Source: Hoeflea prorocentri (GTDB lineage: Bacteria > Pseudomonadota > Alphaproteobacteria > Rhizobiales > Rhizobiaceae). From it: DNA of 64,000 nt. The stretch covers positions 186,001-250,000 of the forward strand of contig NZ_JAPJZI010000001.1 in assembly GCF_027944115.1 (NCBI RefSeq), in the 5' to 3' direction. Position 1 is the first letter of the stretch, and the number at the start of each line of letters is the position of its first letter. The position numbers and the translations under genes were made by a program. The notes beneath the pieces were generated by a model. That model worked only from the letters and a program-made list of their open reading frames with translations, did no database searches and was not told the origin of the DNA. Positions 34,144-56,620 of the stretch are shown piece by piece.

Positions 34144-34220
34144 GGCGGGGTAGCTCAGGTGGTTAGAGCAGCGGAATCATAATCCGCGTGTCGGGGGTTC
34201 GAGTCCCTCTCCCGCTACCA
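34144..34220 (+). tRNA. tRNA-Met (anticodon CAT)
   Basis: 77 bases folding into a complete cloverleaf: acceptor GGCGGGG / TCCCGCT with G-T ends, D-arm GCTC/GAGC, anticodon stem GCGGA / TCCGC with loop ATCATAA (anticodon CAT), T-arm GGGGG-TTCGAGT-CCCTC and encoded ACCA. The sequence resembles rhizobial elongator tRNA-Met; a lysidine-modified tRNA-Ile2 also has CAT, so isotype rests on similarity. An integrase points at its 3' end, making it the likely island attachment site. Confidence 0.95.
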
Positions 34221-34419: not shown

Positions 34420-35580
34420 TCAGGAGAACAACGCTTGCTCAGCTGCCTTGGCAGCGTTTCTTTCGTCCTGATATTCGCGCCAAAGATGCCCGTAAATATC
34501 CCATGTCGTCTGGATGCTGGCATGCCCCGCCCAGGTTTTGACTTGCTTTGGCGTGGCGCCGTTTTTGATCCACAACGATATTCCTGCATGACGAAGGCTG
34601 TGCATGCCGAAGAGAGGCTTATCGCCTTCCTTGATAATATTGGCGGAGACCATCAGTGGAACCCAAAGCCGATTATAGAGATTGGCATAGCTTTCGACTT
34701 TGCCCACCCCGTTGCCGAAGACCAAAGCATCCTGATTTGAAGGGCATGAAAGCATCCACTTGCGGAGTGCTTTTGCTGTTCGAGGCCCTATTGGCACATT
34801 ACGAATGCTGTTCTTTGTTTTAACTCGCTCAATGTTGTTCCAGCGATCGGCCTTGCGTCGAACCTGAATCTCGGTTGTCGGCTTCTTCAAACATATGAAC
34901 CGTCGGCTCACGGCGCGTAGTTCGCTTATTCTGAGGGCTTGGAATAACAAGACGCTCACGAAGGCTTCGGCGCGTCCACTTTTGTCGAAGTTCGCCGACG
35001 CTTGGAGAAACGTTTTCAAGACTTCCATCGGGGGCAAATTCAGAGACTCACGGTCAGCTTCCCAATCGGGCGCGGTGCGTACCGAAATCGCCCGCGCCGG
35101 ATTGCTGCCGATCCAACCCTGACCCACCGAATAGTCAACGATCATACGGAGCGTCGAAAACACGCGTTGGGCCAGATCGTCGCTACGGCTGACTTCCAGT
35201 TCACGTGCGAAAGCGACACAGTCCGGTCCACTTAGCCGAGAGATTTTTGATTTTGCGATATTGAAAGGTATTAAGTGCAAGCGGACGTGTTGTTCGTATC
35301 CCCTCAACGTAATTCGCGCTCGCTTACTGGCGTCGACCAGGTTTTCGAAGTCGCTGAGAAATGCTCGTGCGGCGTCTCCCACCGTTATCGAACGTTTATC
35401 AGGCACATGAACGCCGCGGGCAATCTGACCTTCAACACGGATGCGTTCGTCTTCTGCCTCGCGTTTGGTTCCAAACTGCTTCTGTTGAAGGTTTCCGTCA
35501 CGATCAACATAGTTCAGCTGCCAGGCGGTGCGTTTCTCGCCCGATTTTGTTGCCCAAGACCTTTTCCTGACCCTTGCCAT
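34420..35580 (-). CDS. Tyrosine-type site-specific integrase
   Basis: 386-residue phage-type integrase. N-terminal Arm-binding-like part (WQLNYVDRDGNLQQKQFGTKREAEDE), SAM-like core-binding domain about 60-170, and catalytic domain with Arg in FQALRISELRAVSRR, His-x-x-Arg in FGMHSLRHAGISLWI, GHAS, and the nucleophile Tyr in TTWDIYGHLW. All key residues are present, so it is probably active. Its 3' end faces the tRNA-Met gene 200 bases away, as in tRNA-integrated islands. The small Xis-like gene lies directly upstream. Confidence 0.93.
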   Translation of the reverse strand: MARVRKRSWATKSGEKRTAWQLNYVDRDGNLQQKQFGTKREAEDERIRVEGQIARGVHVPDKRSITVGDAARAFLSDFENLVDASKRARITLRGYEQHVRLHLIPFNIAKSKISRLSGPDCVAFARELEVSRSDDLAQRVFSTLRMIVDYSVGQGWIGSNPARAISVRTAPDWEADRESLNLPPMEVLKTFLQASANFDKSGRAEAFVSVLLFQALRISELRAVSRRFICLKKPTTEIQVRRKADRWNNIERVKTKNSIRNVPIGPRTAKALRKWMLSCPSNQDALVFGNGVGKVESYANLYNRLWVPLMVSANIIKEGDKPLFGMHSLRHAGISLWIKNGATPKQVKTWAGHASIQTTWDIYGHLWREYQDERNAAKAAEQALFS

Positions 35581-36946: not shown

Positions 36947-37180
36947 ATGGTGACATCTGAACAGATTCGTGGTGCGCGCGCGATGCTCCGATGGGAGCAG
37001 AAGCAGCTTTCGAAGGCTTCGGGTGTCTCGATTCCAACCATCAAGCGGATGGAGGCAGGATCCGGCCCGGTACGTGGGACGTACGAGAACGTGTTAGCGA
37101 TTCAGACGGCACTCGAAGATGCTGGTGTTGAATTTGTTGATGCGAATGGTGGTGGACCCGGTGTGCGGTTGCGAGGATAG
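36947..37180 (+). CDS. XRE-family transcriptional regulator
   Basis: 77 residues, a single Cro/CI-type helix-turn-helix: SEQIRGARAMLRWEQKQLSKASGVSIPTIKRMEAG, then a short strand AGVEFVDANGGGPGVRL. This compact form is common in alphaproteobacterial islands and may control the neighbouring divergent genes. The upstream 150 bases are AT-rich, a likely promoter/operator area. Confidence 0.8.
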   Translation: MVTSEQIRGARAMLRWEQKQLSKASGVSIPTIKRMEAGSGPVRGTYENVLAIQTALEDAGVEFVDANGGGPGVRLRG

Positions 37181-37267: not shown

Positions 37268-37810
37268 CTACAAGTCCAAACCACCGCCCATATACTTTCC
37301 CTTGTAGGGGAGGGGCTTTTTGAATACCGCACGGAACAAAGCGTCGACGCAATCAATAATTGCCTGCAGCGCTCCTATTACCTCTATATGCGAGAGAGAA
37401 TGAACCTCCTTGGGGTGCACAAGCCGGTTTCTTGCGTCAATGGCGGCTTGCAGTTTGCTAAACCAAGTACCTTTGGAAGCAGCCACGTCATCGGAGAATT
37501 TTTTGAGAAGTAACTCAATGCGATCAGTCATTCTGGAAAACTTTGGAGTGGCTGAAAGTCGAAAAGAGCCCTTTTCGAGGCGCACCTCCCTTTCGAGTAG
37601 CACACCCTTTTCATGTACGGACAAGATTGAACGGTTTTTAAAGTGATCAGAGATCTCGTTAATATGCGCTTCTAAGAAGGAAACCCCGTGCAAAAGTGCA
37701 GCTCGGAGAAAAGCTTGTTTTTGATCTGTGCGCTTTTCGATCTCTGCCTTTTCCGCAAAGCCCTTGGCGGCATCCATCAAAGTCCTCGCATAGTCCACAA
37801 AATCGGACAT
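37268..37810 (-). CDS. HEPN-like protein coupled to the DGQHR protein
   Basis: 180 residues, helical. The segment WFSKLQAAIDARNRLVHPKEV contains an R-x4-H motif (Arg127-Asn-Arg-Leu-Val-His132), the active-site signature of HEPN ribonucleases and related domains. An early helical part (KQAFLRAALLHGVSFLEAHINEISDHF) also looks like HEPN helix 1-2. Its ATG overlaps the stop of the upstream gene by one base (TAATG), so translation is coupled. HEPN proteins often act as toxins or defence effectors; that role is inference here. Confidence 0.65.
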   Translation of the reverse strand: MSDFVDYARTLMDAAKGFAEKAEIEKRTDQKQAFLRAALLHGVSFLEAHINEISDHFKNRSILSVHEKGVLLEREVRLEKGSFRLSATPKFSRMTDRIELLLKKFSDDVAASKGTWFSKLQAAIDARNRLVHPKEVHSLSHIEVIGALQAIIDCVDALFRAVFKKPLPYKGKYMGGGLDL

Positions 37811-39108
37811 TAAAGCTTTGCCTTACCTTTTTCGAACTCCAACACGGCCTTCTTCGCCTCGTAGCCTTTGATTGCGGTATCTATCACACCCTTCGAAAAG
37901 CCAGTCCCCTTTTCCGCTTGCAGCCAGAAAAGTTCAGTGAAACGTCCGCGTTCTTTTGGATCTGAGCGGAAGCCTAATCCTCGATAAGCCTCAGGGTCGG
38001 TCGCATGCTTTCCCTGAGCTAGCAAGTCGGCACGCAATGGATCCTTGCTCGTACTCTTTACAAGGTCGTAGTGCCGCTTCAGGCGCGCTTTGTTCCTTTG
38101 CAGCACGCCAGCAACGAAAGCCCAACCTGCTAGCAAAGCTATGTTCCGCGTTTTGTAGATTTGGTCGGCTCGCCCCTTTAGCTTTTTTGTTTTCTTGTCC
38201 ATGAAAGCGGCCTTTTGAGCTTCTTGAAGTTTCACGAATTGCTTTCCCGCTTCTAGCAGGTTTTTATCCTGCCACATCTTTGGGTGATCCTTTTTGGCCT
38301 GAACCCAGTCTTGGGGCTCACGTTCGCCCGATTTTACAATTTTGGGCGTGGTGTCGACTGAATCGAACTTTTTGTCGTCAATGTTCTGGCCAGCATAGAA
38401 ATTCACAATAAATGTTCGGGCTTCTTTCACAGTGGTTGGACTTGCCCTGCTCGCCTTGTCGGCAAAATCGCCATCCTTTTCCAGAAGTCCACACTGCTGG
38501 CACCAGTCACGAAGTTCGGGCCCTTCCATCGTGGCATACATTCTATCAAGCAGGTCTGCTGACACAGCTATGTTGGTATTCGAGATTACTTGAACATCCA
38601 GCCTCTGGTCCTTGTCCAAGTCGAAGTAGACTTTGATTCCGTGATGCACATCAATCTTGTCGTTCAGTGCCTCCGAAATCGCTTCGAACCGGTGCTGACC
38701 ACCGATTACCTCAAGAGTGCCATCATTATCACTCAAGAACTCGCAGACGATATTGCTGAACTTACGCCTTCCCAAGGCATCTGACTTCATCTGCTCGAAA
38801 GCCGAGTGGTTTGTTACTAATTCTCGATTCGCTCGATAATCGCCGGAGGCATCAGGATCCAGTGCCACGTCCGTAGTTCCGTGCGCGCAGATAATTGAAG
38901 CAAGAGCGTGGCATTCTACAAAAGGGGCTCCGGTTAGTTCATCGATCAATACAATCATGTTCTGGCGCTCCAACGGCTTGAACAGCTCGCAAAACTCTAC
39001 GATTAGGCTTTCAAGTTCAGTGCCCGTTGGATCTGTGGGGAAATCGGAGAATGTGATCTTATCCGTCAAGACTGTCCTCTTTTGTCGCTGAATTGAGAGA
39101 GCACTCAT
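37810..39108 (-). CDS. DGQHR/DndB-like protein
   Basis: 432 residues from the ATG at 39108 (the frame opens at 39168 with a weaker start). The hallmark is TLEVIGGQHRFEAISEAL (GGQHR at 136-140), the motif of the DGQHR domain shared by DndB-type and ParB-like nuclease-fold proteins, followed by NTNIAVSADLLDRM. The C-terminal half is Lys-rich and helical with no motif I recognise. DndB regulates DNA phosphorothioation, but no dndCDE genes are here, so a dnd system cannot be claimed. First gene of a two-gene unit with the HEPN-like gene. Confidence 0.65.
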   Translation of the reverse strand: MSALSIQRQKRTVLTDKITFSDFPTDPTGTELESLIVEFCELFKPLERQNMIVLIDELTGAPFVECHALASIICAHGTTDVALDPDASGDYRANRELVTNHSAFEQMKSDALGRRKFSNIVCEFLSDNDGTLEVIGGQHRFEAISEALNDKIDVHHGIKVYFDLDKDQRLDVQVISNTNIAVSADLLDRMYATMEGPELRDWCQQCGLLEKDGDFADKASRASPTTVKEARTFIVNFYAGQNIDDKKFDSVDTTPKIVKSGEREPQDWVQAKKDHPKMWQDKNLLEAGKQFVKLQEAQKAAFMDKKTKKLKGRADQIYKTRNIALLAGWAFVAGVLQRNKARLKRHYDLVKSTSKDPLRADLLAQGKHATDPEAYRGLGFRSDPKERGRFTELFWLQAEKGTGFSKGVIDTAIKGYEAKKAVLEFEKGKAKL

Positions 39109-39418
39109 AGTTATACTACTTAGAATCGCCCGGGTAACTATCTTCAGCGGCCGTAGGCCGCGCTGCAACGCAGCGCTTCAACGGACGATGAACAGCAGGT
39201 TTGGGCCGATAGCGTTCACTTGCATGGGCCAAACTATAGCTGACCAAAGAGTCGCGGAGATCAGCCTTCTGCATGAGGACTAGAAGTCGAATGATGAAAA
39301 CATCGTAGAGGTTCAATTCACAACACACCGTTTGAATAGGTGCACCAAAGGGACAAATCGTTCATTCCTACGGTAACTAGACCGATATGGTGAGATGTCC
39401 TGAGAGTATAGGCAGCGA
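39109..39418. other. Divergent promoter region of the DGQHR and ExK genes
   Basis: 310 bases between two divergent starts. A 70-codon frame on the - strand (39116-39328) has no domain and odd composition, so I do not call it. AT-rich patches near 39290-39400 may be promoters. No clear repeat or operator. Confidence 0.35.
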
Positions 39419-40849
39419 ATGATTTCAGAAAAGCGGATAGTTAGGGCAGTTGATGACGCAAATGTACATTTCCTCTGGTGCTGGGAACGGTTTCAGAAGC
39501 TGAAAAGGTTTGAAATTGAGCCACAGGATCTGACTGACTTTCAAGTCAGGCTAACTGCAGCATTTACGATACTTGATCGGACCTATCGATTGATCAAAGC
39601 TGACCAGAAGCGGCTCATTGAACGAAAAGAGCAATACAGTCGGCCTTGGTTTGCCAGCAGAATGGGTAAGCTAGACCTGTACTTGAAGGCGGTAAAAGAG
39701 GCCCTCGGGATTGGCCGCAGCCTAGGGGATGGATTCGCCTGGATTTTTTACAAGGATGAATCCGCGCTGCTTGAGCAACATAATACAGAACAGCGACAGC
39801 TTCTGCTTCCGCCAAGTGTTGGAGGTCTGGGTGAACGGGCATTCATCGAGAAGTTGCAGGGCCTCAAAGGCATGTTTGTGCTGTATCATGCCATCACCTC
39901 GTTTCTGCGCCTGGGCGACGTCAGCTTTTTCGATCCTGTGTCCGGTGAAATCGTGGGCATCGGCGAACTAAAGACACGCCACGTGGAGGGCGACCGTTAC
40001 GACATCACATTGGGGTTTGTCTCAGGTGGTTTCGAAAACCCAATGCTGAAGCAGGACGAGTCTGAAGAGCCCGATGTTAGATTCGAGCCCTTGGACCAAT
40101 CAACTAGGAAAAAGCTCAACAAGCAGATGGATCAGCTGGGTAACGCTTTGGAAATGCGTGTCAAGGCGGATGCCAATCCGAGAATCGAGACCTCCAGCAA
40201 ATTCCATTTTGAAGTGCTAGAGCGAAATATTCAAAGCTGCGGCGCCAGGGCCTTTGAGATGAGAAAGGCCGGACCGGGTCTTATTCTCGGTGCTTGGCGT
40301 CCACGCCTACAGAGTAGCCTTGGAAAGAGAATTATGCGATCAGCGACGAACATAGACGCGGCCATCAGTCCGGTAGAGGCGGCCGTCGCGAAAATCCTTG
40401 ATCCTCAACTTGAAGACAACTGTCTTTTCATTGGCAACCTTGGCAATCATGAAACGGGCTTCCCGGTCACGCCAAGCGGCGGAGTTCCCATGATCTGGTG
40501 GCCGCTCGGAGAGCAACAGATACATGACCTACTCTTTGGACACGTGCTAGTCATCACGCTATTCAACCCCGCTATACTTTGGGCGATCCTGCGCAAGCGA
40601 GGCTTTGAAGTCATTTTGGGCCGAAGGTCACGCGTTCTGAAGATCACCAAGAAGGTGGGAAAAGCAGGTCTGGACCTGGAAAATTTCTCCTACTTTGAGA
40701 ACCTAATACCTTATGCGCTCATGGATGAAAACGCCGTGGCTGATATGATCGATGCAAGTGTGAAGCAGATAGTGGCTGCCGCAGGCGGTCGCCCCGCGAA
40801 AGTTGGCATTAGACCACACCTGAGATTTGAGCCAGATAGGCGCAAATGA
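39419..40849 (+). CDS. Unknown 476-residue protein with PD-(D/E)xK-like motif
   Basis: Residues 1-100 are helical and charged; then GERAFIEKLQGLKGMFVLYHAITSFLRLGDVSFFDPVSGEIVGIGELKTRHV holds Asp172 and Glu183-Leu-Lys185, a D-x10-ExK pattern on adjacent strands like restriction-fold nucleases. The C-terminal part has strands and a hydrophobic stretch (LLFGHVLVITLFNPAILWAIL) but no further motif. No relative is recognised. It is divergent from the DGQHR/HEPN pair in an AT-rich island region, so a joint defence or addiction module is plausible but unproven. Confidence 0.6.
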   Translation: MISEKRIVRAVDDANVHFLWCWERFQKLKRFEIEPQDLTDFQVRLTAAFTILDRTYRLIKADQKRLIERKEQYSRPWFASRMGKLDLYLKAVKEALGIGRSLGDGFAWIFYKDESALLEQHNTEQRQLLLPPSVGGLGERAFIEKLQGLKGMFVLYHAITSFLRLGDVSFFDPVSGEIVGIGELKTRHVEGDRYDITLGFVSGGFENPMLKQDESEEPDVRFEPLDQSTRKKLNKQMDQLGNALEMRVKADANPRIETSSKFHFEVLERNIQSCGARAFEMRKAGPGLILGAWRPRLQSSLGKRIMRSATNIDAAISPVEAAVAKILDPQLEDNCLFIGNLGNHETGFPVTPSGGVPMIWWPLGEQQIHDLLFGHVLVITLFNPAILWAILRKRGFEVILGRRSRVLKITKKVGKAGLDLENFSYFENLIPYALMDENAVADMIDASVKQIVAAAGGRPAKVGIRPHLRFEPDRRK

Positions 40850-41752: not shown

Positions 41753-42685
41753 TCATGCGGCGGCTTTTTCAGCTGAAAATTGGAACTCCGTGCCGTCGAC
41801 CCACATGCGATGCATGATCACGGCGAGCTTACGGCCAACGGCGACACAGGCGCATTTGAAGCCATTTCGGCGTTGGATTCTGAGCCCCCAGGACTTCAGT
41901 GCGGACCACTTCTGCACACGGCACAGGATGGAATTACCAGCTTCGAACAGCAGCGTTCGAACCTCGCCGTCACCACATTTTGAGATGCGTCCTTCTTGAT
42001 CAACCGTGCCGGATTGAAAGCGTTGCGGCGTCATCCCGAAATAGGCGCCAACGGTTTTGGAGTGTCGAAAGCGCTTCGGATCATCGATCCCGGACATGAC
42101 AGCGACGGCCGTCATCGGGCCAACACCAGGAATGGTCATGAAGCCGCGCGTCACAGGATTAGCTTTCGCCGCCAGCATTATCAGGCGCTCGCACCGGGTA
42201 AATTGAACGAGCAGAACGCTGCGCGCCTGCAGCATGGGGTCAATCATCTCGTGCAGAAATGGATCTTCATTGCACAATAACTCACGCATTCGATGATCGA
42301 ACTTGGCTCGCGAGATATGACCCGTCTTGATGCCAAAGACCTTCAACGTGCCGCGAATGGTGTTCTCGATATCGAGAAACTTACGCTTCAGCATGCGCCT
42401 GTTGGCCAGCAGAATGCGCAAGCGATGGCTCTCATCGCTCTTGACGTGGACCTCGCGAAACCAGCCCGTGCGCATCATTTGCGCGATGCCCTTGGCGTCG
42501 TTCCGGTCGGTCTTGTTGCGCATGGCGCTCAGCGCCGTTTGAACGCATCTTGCCTCGAACTTCGGCAGACCTAGACCCTGGGAGATTACGTCGGCAGTCA
42601 TTTGCCGAACTCTAGGTGCGGGTGCTCCCTCTTTCCAATCCCATTCGCTTTTCTGTTCGGTGAAGGTCTTGAGCAACTCCCGCAC
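41753..42685 (-). pseudogene. IS110-family transposase, 5'-truncated
   Basis: 310 residues. The IS110 blocks ALSAMRNKTDRNDAKGIAQMMRTGWF, the C-terminal IPGVGPMTAVAVMSGIDDPKRFRHSKTVGAYFGMTPQRFQSG and GDGEVRTLLFEAGNSIL are clear. The normal N-terminus, with the first acidic residue of the DEDD site (a GLD-type strand), is missing: the first 40 residues match nothing and no frame upstream restores it. So this copy should be inactive. IS110 elements have no long inverted repeats, so the ends are not placed. Confidence 0.82.
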
Positions 42686-56592: not shown

Positions 56593-56620
56593 GGAGGCGG
56601 CGAGATTGCCCGCCGCCTCC
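56593..56620 (+). other. Intra-operon stem-loop after the binding-protein gene
   Basis: Perfect 10-bp stem GGAGGCGGCG (56593-56602) / CGCCGCCTCC (56611-56620) with an 8-base loop and no T-run. Such hairpins after binding-protein genes usually stabilise the upstream mRNA so the binding protein is made in excess; that role is inferred. Confidence 0.7.

Follow-up and report, generated by a model that had tools for sequence, protein, structure and literature searches.

A divergent ParB/sulfiredoxin-like and HEPN gene pair of Hoeflea prorocentri as a candidate two-gene anti-phage module

Gene layout of the locus

The window analyzed here is a 64,000-nucleotide stretch of the alphaproteobacterium Hoeflea prorocentri (assembly GCF_027944115.1, contig NZ_JAPJZI010000001.1, positions 186,001 to 250,000). 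Its minus strand carries a gene for a ParB/sulfiredoxin-like protein with a GGQHR motif (window positions 37810..39168; 452 amino acids (aa) counted from a TTG start), followed by a gene for a HEPN protein of the PF18735 (RiboL-PSP-HEPN) family (37268..37810, 180 aa). The two genes overlap in a TAATG stop/start (37808..37812, minus strand), and the overlap named by the first-pass annotation of this DNA was confirmed. Judged by sequence comparison, the two minus-strand genes form a real, mobile and co-evolving two-gene module, which spans viral contigs (near virion genes), Lachnospiraceae (Bacillota) and the tRNA-borne island of the window genome. The first-pass annotation had described a cassette of three genes. 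All three open reading frames (ORFs; 180, 452 and 476 aa) are present, the third (39419..40849, plus strand) being divergent and starting 250 bp from the ParB-like ORF; from its ORF and from homologue searches it was judged to be an orphan outside the conserved pair. The true start of the ParB-like gene may lie downstream of the TTG, for example at the ATG at 39108, because three relatives begin near residue 37.

Each of the two minus-strand genes encodes a short motif that is invariant in all eight aligned copies, namely the predicted nucleotide-binding motif GGQHR at residues 156-160 (38689..38703, minus strand) and the predicted RNase active site R127-N-x3-H132 of the HEPN protein (RNRLVH; 37415..37432, minus strand). 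The chance level of such motifs was estimated from 5000 residue shuffles of each protein. The R-x4-H pattern appeared in 38% of the HEPN-protein shuffles and R-N-x3-H in 0.8%, while [DG]GQ[HQ]R was present in 0.08% of the shuffles of the ParB-like protein. For the third protein, D-x10-E-x-K was obtained in 11% and the looser D-x8-20-[DE]-x-K in 88% of the shuffles. With these frequencies, the motifs alone back both minus-strand genes but give no such backing to the third.

The window proteins were also scanned against the Pfam, NCBIfam, PADLOC and PHROGs libraries. Among the nine ORFs scanned between 34420 and 43729, Pfam found no dnd, methylase or CRISPR genes, and within this interval the earlier statement that dndCDE, methylase and CRISPR companions are lacking was borne out.

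Recurrence and co-evolution of the gene pair

The pair was found in seven further loci: four viral contigs (L034, L044, L045 and L046) and three Lachnospiraceae loci (L036, L037 and L038). When the whole proteins of the three genes were used as queries, no match was obtained in viral contigs. A 91-residue fragment of the ParB-like protein had two matches in IMG/VR (L034 and L035), and a second fragment of it had none in the viral contigs. L035, a 27-residue match within an ordinary ParB-like phage gene, was excluded before counting. In L034, the ParB-like protein is 50% identical over the whole-protein alignment, and the HEPN gene that follows has 40% identity to that of the window. The genome-contig scan, run once with the ParB-like profile (a two-sequence alignment) as the query, resulted in 63 pattern matches and three relatives; since it used two peptide patterns, more remote copies would be missed. 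These relatives, two loci of Lachnospiraceae metagenome-assembled genomes (L036 and L037) and one of Mediterraneibacter catenae (L038), encode ParB-like proteins about 50% identical to that of the window, with the HEPN gene directly downstream. The HEPN-profile scan of viral contigs, which was blind to the neighboring gene, gave 61 pattern matches and four relatives. One was the L034 contig again (as L043), and the other three, L044, L045 and L046, have the ParB-like gene directly upstream of HEPN with an identity of 47.7-52.3%.

The search was therefore reciprocal: HEPN adjoins all four loci found with the ParB-like protein (L034, L036, L037 and L038), and the ParB-like gene lies directly upstream in all four found with HEPN (L043, L044, L045 and L046). 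Gene order is identical in 8/8 loci, the junctions in the seven relatives vary between an overlap of 8 bp and a gap of 1 bp (with the starts as chosen), and the two genes stay together down to pairwise identities of 46% (ParB-like) and 31% (HEPN). The first-pass annotation had proposed co-occurrence across genomes as a check on its cassette. The ParB-like and HEPN genes do co-occur, in 8/8 intact loci, but the third gene accompanies them in none of the seven relatives.

In the one comparison made (L036 with L037), the ratio of nonsynonymous to synonymous substitution rates (dN/dS) was 0.071 for the ParB-like gene and 0.032 for HEPN, i.e. both are under purifying selection. The protein distance matrices of the eight pairs correlate with r = 0.92, a value reached in none of 5000 permutations, which argues for common descent as a unit; this r is inflated because two of the eight loci are near-identical and three come from one family.

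Apart from these loci, the ParB-like protein was found only in its own genome among 397 order-level and 398 phylum-level genomes (overlapping sets). The pair was not found in plasmids or phage records, and plasmid searches with both proteins at loose limits gave chance-level matches only. In 299 genomes of the family of L038, the ParB-like profile identified three genomes, two already known and one with a decayed copy (L042, genome G1244), in which an AlbA_2-type gene is followed by a 55-aa ParB-like stub, with no HEPN gene in the following 1.5 kb.

Portal, terminase or tail genes lie near the pair in 4/4 viral contigs: portal and terminase genes in L044, terminase genes in L045, tail genes in L046 and L034. 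Upstream of the pair, L045 also has a gene matching both ParB-like and DNA methyltransferase families (L045:3229-4488). Among the Lachnospiraceae loci, the neighbors of L036 and L038 were scanned against the libraries, and those of L037 were inspected by eye. In L036, the pair is preceded by genes of the GmrSD_N and AlbA_2 types and followed by AbiH. In L038, genes for a methylase and a nuclease, both of EcoRII type, and for Vsr precede the pair, and genes for an AlbA_2 protein and a Dsr1-like SIR2 protein follow it. In four Lachnospiraceae loci, the pair or what is left of it adjoins a gene of AlbA_2 (Schlafen) and HATPase_c_4 domains, assigned by Pfam in L036 (L036:3264-4763) and L038 (L038:12107-13636) and by eye in L042 (L042:11-1504) and L037 (a remnant, L037:9537-9854). 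In L036 and L042 it shares 4 bp with the start of the ParB-like gene, and it is possibly an accessory to the pair.

Family placement of the two proteins

The HEPN protein matches Pfam PF18735 (HEPN_RiboL-PSP) at the very edge of acceptance (28.5 bits, cut-off 28.4). Across the family, 7/8 members match PF18735 at E ≤ 0.01, and the L038 HEPN scores 24.9 bits, below the cut-off. HEPN profiles matched other PF18735 proteins with E of 3.9e-4 and 0.0014. HEPN RNases are described as metal-independent enzymes with an R-x4-6-H motif and a polar residue after the arginine (PMC3710099). Precisely such an arrangement, R127-N128-x3-H132, is found in 8/8 copies, from which RNase activity is predicted, and the extended R-N-x3-H-P-K is invariant as well. 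The first-pass annotation had named this gene for R127-x4-H132; that assignment stands, with R-N-x3-H rare in shuffles and invariant, and PF18735 just reached.

The larger protein had been called DGQHR/DndB-like. Members of the DndB/DGQHR family have a nearly invariant DGQHR pentapeptide (PMC4619093), and the window protein resembles this family (PF14072) in its short GQHR motif and a weak profile match. It differs in the first motif residue, which is G in 8/8 copies, in a score far below the Pfam cut-off for DndB (14.0 bits against 29.1, E 0.027), and in having no dnd gene among the scanned neighbors. The motif named by the first-pass annotation was corrected to GGQHR, and a true DndB was rejected, as motif and score both fail. 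A second motif, YRANR, is likewise invariant in 8/8 copies. The protein scored 13.6 bits with Pfam GmrSD_N (PF03235; cut-off 33.2, E 0.073), had no NCBIfam match at E ≤ 1, and had two weak PHROGs matches only (a ParB-like family, 0.008, and an unknown family, 0.13). Its L038 relative matched no PADLOC family at E ≤ 0.1. Among the eight members, GmrSD_N was matched at E ≤ 0.1 by one and DndB, weakly, by five (best 0.0028). In the profile comparison, five of the DndB-like proteins (L028-L033) retrieved with PF14072 from 96 genomes of the class were used. The ParB-like profile matched DndB-like proteins on the motif with E of 5.4e-4 and 1.9e-4, the latter with a probability of 47% over 27 columns; mismatched controls of the HEPN and ParB-like comparisons gave E of 0.30-0.64.

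An AlphaFold2 model of the ParB-like protein was built from five sequences, with a mean predicted local distance difference test (pLDDT) score of 60. Its matches in BFVD at E ≤ 0.001 were two GmrSD_N proteins (4.5e-4 and 6.6e-4) and one uncharacterized phage protein, and GmrSD_N, DUF262, DndB-like or ParB names made up 11 of the 50 best BFVD rows. In the PDB structure search, ParB or sulfiredoxin proteins accounted for eight of the 50 best rows; PDB sequence searches returned nothing useful. The protein is thus placed as probably ParB/sulfiredoxin (Srx)-like, a name and grade chosen because all profile-comparison probabilities are under 50%.

Relation to described systems

The first-pass annotation recognised no named system with these genes, a view that two sources do not support. 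A 2023 review (PMC10952713) gives DUF262 and PF18735 HEPN as the domains of PD-T4-2, and Table 1 of Anantharaman et al. (2013; PMC3710099) lists the RiboL-PSP-HEPN family in operon with ParB. The PF18735 label may be loose in this part of the review, because the same row covers other HEPN systems too. PD-T4-2 protects E. coli from T4, both natively and in K-12, and its deletion from the native strain greatly raises T4 plaquing (PMC9519451). The window pair is similar to PD-T4-2 in that a protein of probable ParB/Srx type is combined with a HEPN partner of the kind credited to PF18735 (PMC10952713). It is also similar to PD-T4-2_A-like loci in gene order, the ParB-type gene being directly upstream of HEPN in 6/6 of those tested. 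As opposed to PD-T4-2, the window ParB-like protein has GGQHR and fails the PADLOC PD-T4-2_A and the GmrSD_N cut-off in a comparison with these family models, and its profile alignment with DUF262 proteins is limited to short stretches.

PF18735 had 24 matches in 21 of 150 phylum-level genomes, one being the window's own. Ten ORFs adjoining other PF18735 HEPN genes, picked by eye, were scanned with Pfam; nine were GmrSD_N, each located directly upstream on the same strand (L004, L008, L010, L011, L012, L015, L016, L019 and L023), and one was EcoEI_R_C with Helicase_C. A DUF262 neighbor is thus present in at least 9 of the 23 PF18735 loci of other genomes. Six of these GmrSD_N neighbors were tested in PADLOC, and all six matched both NsnA and PD-T4-2_A. 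The 1.5-kb flanks of the 23 loci (shorter at some contig ends) contained no GGQHR gene of the window kind; GQHR/GQTR strings in other ORFs of L006, L010 and L011 were judged by eye to be unrelated. By these comparisons the window pair shares the PD-T4-2-like design without belonging to the A-family and is a divergent, unnamed ParB-plus-HEPN variant, because its ParB-like protein fails the PD-T4-2_A test. Our searches of open-licence papers gave none that we recognised as a description of this pair.

The operons in the table of Anantharaman et al. (PMC3710099) have the same HEPN family and a ParB-superfamily neighbor, whose family is left unspecified there. The DUF262 NTPases have a ParB/Srx fold with an [I/V]-D-G-Q-Q-R pocket for nucleoside triphosphates (NTPs; PMC10952713, PMC4619093). 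The window protein is probably like those of GmrSD, BrxU and SspE in this fold, two of its three best BFVD model matches being GmrSD_N, and unlike them in that no HNH (DUF1524) domain was matched and the partner is an RNase-type HEPN. Identity with Menshen, Dazbog or GmrSD was rejected on account of the different partner (PMC10952713). A component of a CRISPR or restriction-modification system was considered and rejected as well.

Proposed function and alternative explanations

With a probability of roughly 0.6, we read the pair as a two-gene abortive-infection anti-phage module which would work in the manner of PD-T4-2, though with a ParB/Srx-type partner that is different and divergent. The DGQQR pocket of DUF262 proteins serves in NTP binding and hydrolysis, which in SspE switches on a nuclease domain (PMC10952713). 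Moreover, the GmrS motif has been compared with the sulfiredoxin motif FG/SGCHR (PMC4619093), which GGQHR of the window protein also resembles. Given these DUF262/SspE and sulfiredoxin-motif precedents and those for HEPN, a nucleotide-bound sensor restraining a HEPN RNase is the most likely way of working. The GGQHR protein would bind a nucleotide via a ParB/Srx pocket and, at rest, keep HEPN inactive. A phage cue (DNA that is unusual or carries modifications, or a shift in the nucleotide pool) may alter this resting state; the freed HEPN, probably a dimer, would then cut RNA through the metal-independent R-N-x3-H site, and RNA cleavage would halt translation before phage progeny form. A more specific version is put forward tentatively as a possibility: a phage- and host-borne immune module in which the sulfiredoxin-like GGQHR pocket protein would be the sensor or gatekeeper, its nucleotide-bound state silencing HEPN and phage nucleotides or modified DNA switching it on, with the sensor forming a family of its own rather than belonging to DUF262, DndB or ParB proper.

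Several results weigh against the anti-phage interpretation. The ParB-like protein has no PADLOC match at E ≤ 1 and no Pfam match above cut-off, and its comparison with DUF262 profiles is weak (0.013 with five sequences, on the motif; 0.064 with eight, off the motif). Its structural model is of low confidence. The top three BFVD matches have template-modelling (TM) scores of only 0.19-0.30, those to GmrSD_N being 0.19, and 0/172 matches in the PDB structure search reached E ≤ 0.001. Against other PF18735 HEPNs, the HEPN profile gives a modest match (E 0.0014 with a probability of 18%; mismatched controls 0.41-0.54). Furthermore, the pair is rare, being confined to its own genome in the order- and phylum-level sets and to 3/299 genomes in the family of L038, one of them decayed, and the comparison covers eight loci, of which L036 and L037 are 94-98% identical. 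Finally, prophage genes can serve other ends, such as addiction and exclusion.

Addiction would take the form of a toxin-antitoxin module, with HEPN as the toxin and the GGQHR protein as the antitoxin, that stabilises prophages and islands but has no specific function against phages. A mobile pair of adjacent or overlapping genes in constant order, present in viral contigs and an island, would suit such a module, and HEPN domains have been described as toxins of two-gene systems (PMC3506569). We nevertheless regard it as unlikely. At 410-452 aa, the partner would be large for an antitoxin, and it has an invariant motif resembling a nucleotide site; and both Lachnospiraceae loci with scanned neighbors (L036 and L038) adjoin defence genes. 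Still less probable is a pair devoted to the prophage's own life cycle, through lysogeny, superinfection exclusion or a link to packaging: the virion genes near the pair in all four viral contigs point that way, but they vary from contig to contig (portal and terminase; terminase; tail), and no virion gene occurs among the neighbors scanned or read by eye around the window and Lachnospiraceae copies.

The cassette of three genes, with the divergent 476-aa protein as a nuclease-like third component, now appears very improbable. In its favor are the divergent position close to the ParB-like ORF and the stretch D172-x10-E183-x-K185 named by the first-pass annotation, which is indeed present and at which a single-sequence model places strands. 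That model has a pLDDT of 38, however, and the motif is at chance level, as found in the shuffles. The protein had no match in Pfam, NCBIfam, PADLOC or PHROGs. None of the flanks read around the seven related loci contains the gene (the L034 contig ends just past HEPN, so that this flank is unreadable), nor was it found in whole-length searches of three bacterial genomes and one viral record, which had no positive control. No homologue was found in 384 other genomes of the class, in 198 other genomes of the family, or in plasmids, phage records and viral contigs, and a loose-limit search gave one chance-level match. The third gene therefore does not appear to be part of the pair and is an orphan among the data searched; it would be unrelated cargo.

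If the anti-phage interpretation of the pair is true, there is more than one divergent form of the ParB-plus-HEPN design, and comparing them makes the cue sensed by the ParB-like proteins of PD-T4-2-type systems easier to attack. Defence-finding programs would probably miss the pair, because its larger subunit matches no Pfam, NCBIfam, PADLOC or PHROGs model above cut-off.

Carrier island at tRNA-Met

The first-pass annotation had assigned the genes to an island at tRNA-Met, and this was supported. The tRNA-Met gene lies at 34144-34220 (plus strand), and a tyrosine recombinase gene (Phage_integrase in Pfam; 34420..35580, minus strand) lies 200 bp from it, with the pair beyond this integrase. 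In the plasmid collection, the best matches of the integrase are from Azospirillum and Pseudochrobactrum (identity of 34% or less), and those of a host gene left of the tRNA gene are from Azospirillum, Limimaricola, Paracoccus and Microvirga (45% or less), a weak sign of alphaproteobacterial affinity. The 3' part of the tRNA gene (34173..34220, plus strand), likely the attachment-site repeat of the carrier island, has an exact 48-bp copy 83.4 kb away, at G000:C1:303600-303647, where there is no tRNA gene. No second copy of the tRNA end was found within the window, a 12-base match with one mismatch at 56617 being at chance level. Because the exact copy is so distant, the carrier is likely an island that measures about 83 kb and ends beyond the window, with its far attachment site at 303600-303647.

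The left flank and the tRNA gene occur together in 6/7 other genomes of the genus, and the seventh (G1584) matches by 57 bp only. Among the five relatives of the genus that were read, the match extends further in G1582 alone, where it takes in the integrase region and reaches about 35796. The sequence right of the far repeat had no match to the DNA beyond the tRNA gene in the relatives read, so that no clean empty site was seen.

Other genes were noted along the island. A small Xre/HipB-like regulator is encoded at 36947-37180 (plus strand), with a match to the NCBIfam Y4mF-type antitoxin model under the cut-off (1.4e-7) and no recognised toxin gene adjoining it, and an IS110-family transposase gene (41753-42685, minus strand) lies just past the third gene. 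Judged by eye, most of the ORFs at 249-304 kb of the contig look metabolic. Close to the distal end of the island (G000:C1:292001-303164, L066), a 2710-aa ORF is followed by two ORFs that resemble, also by eye, an ABC transporter for secretion and the membrane-fusion protein that goes with it.

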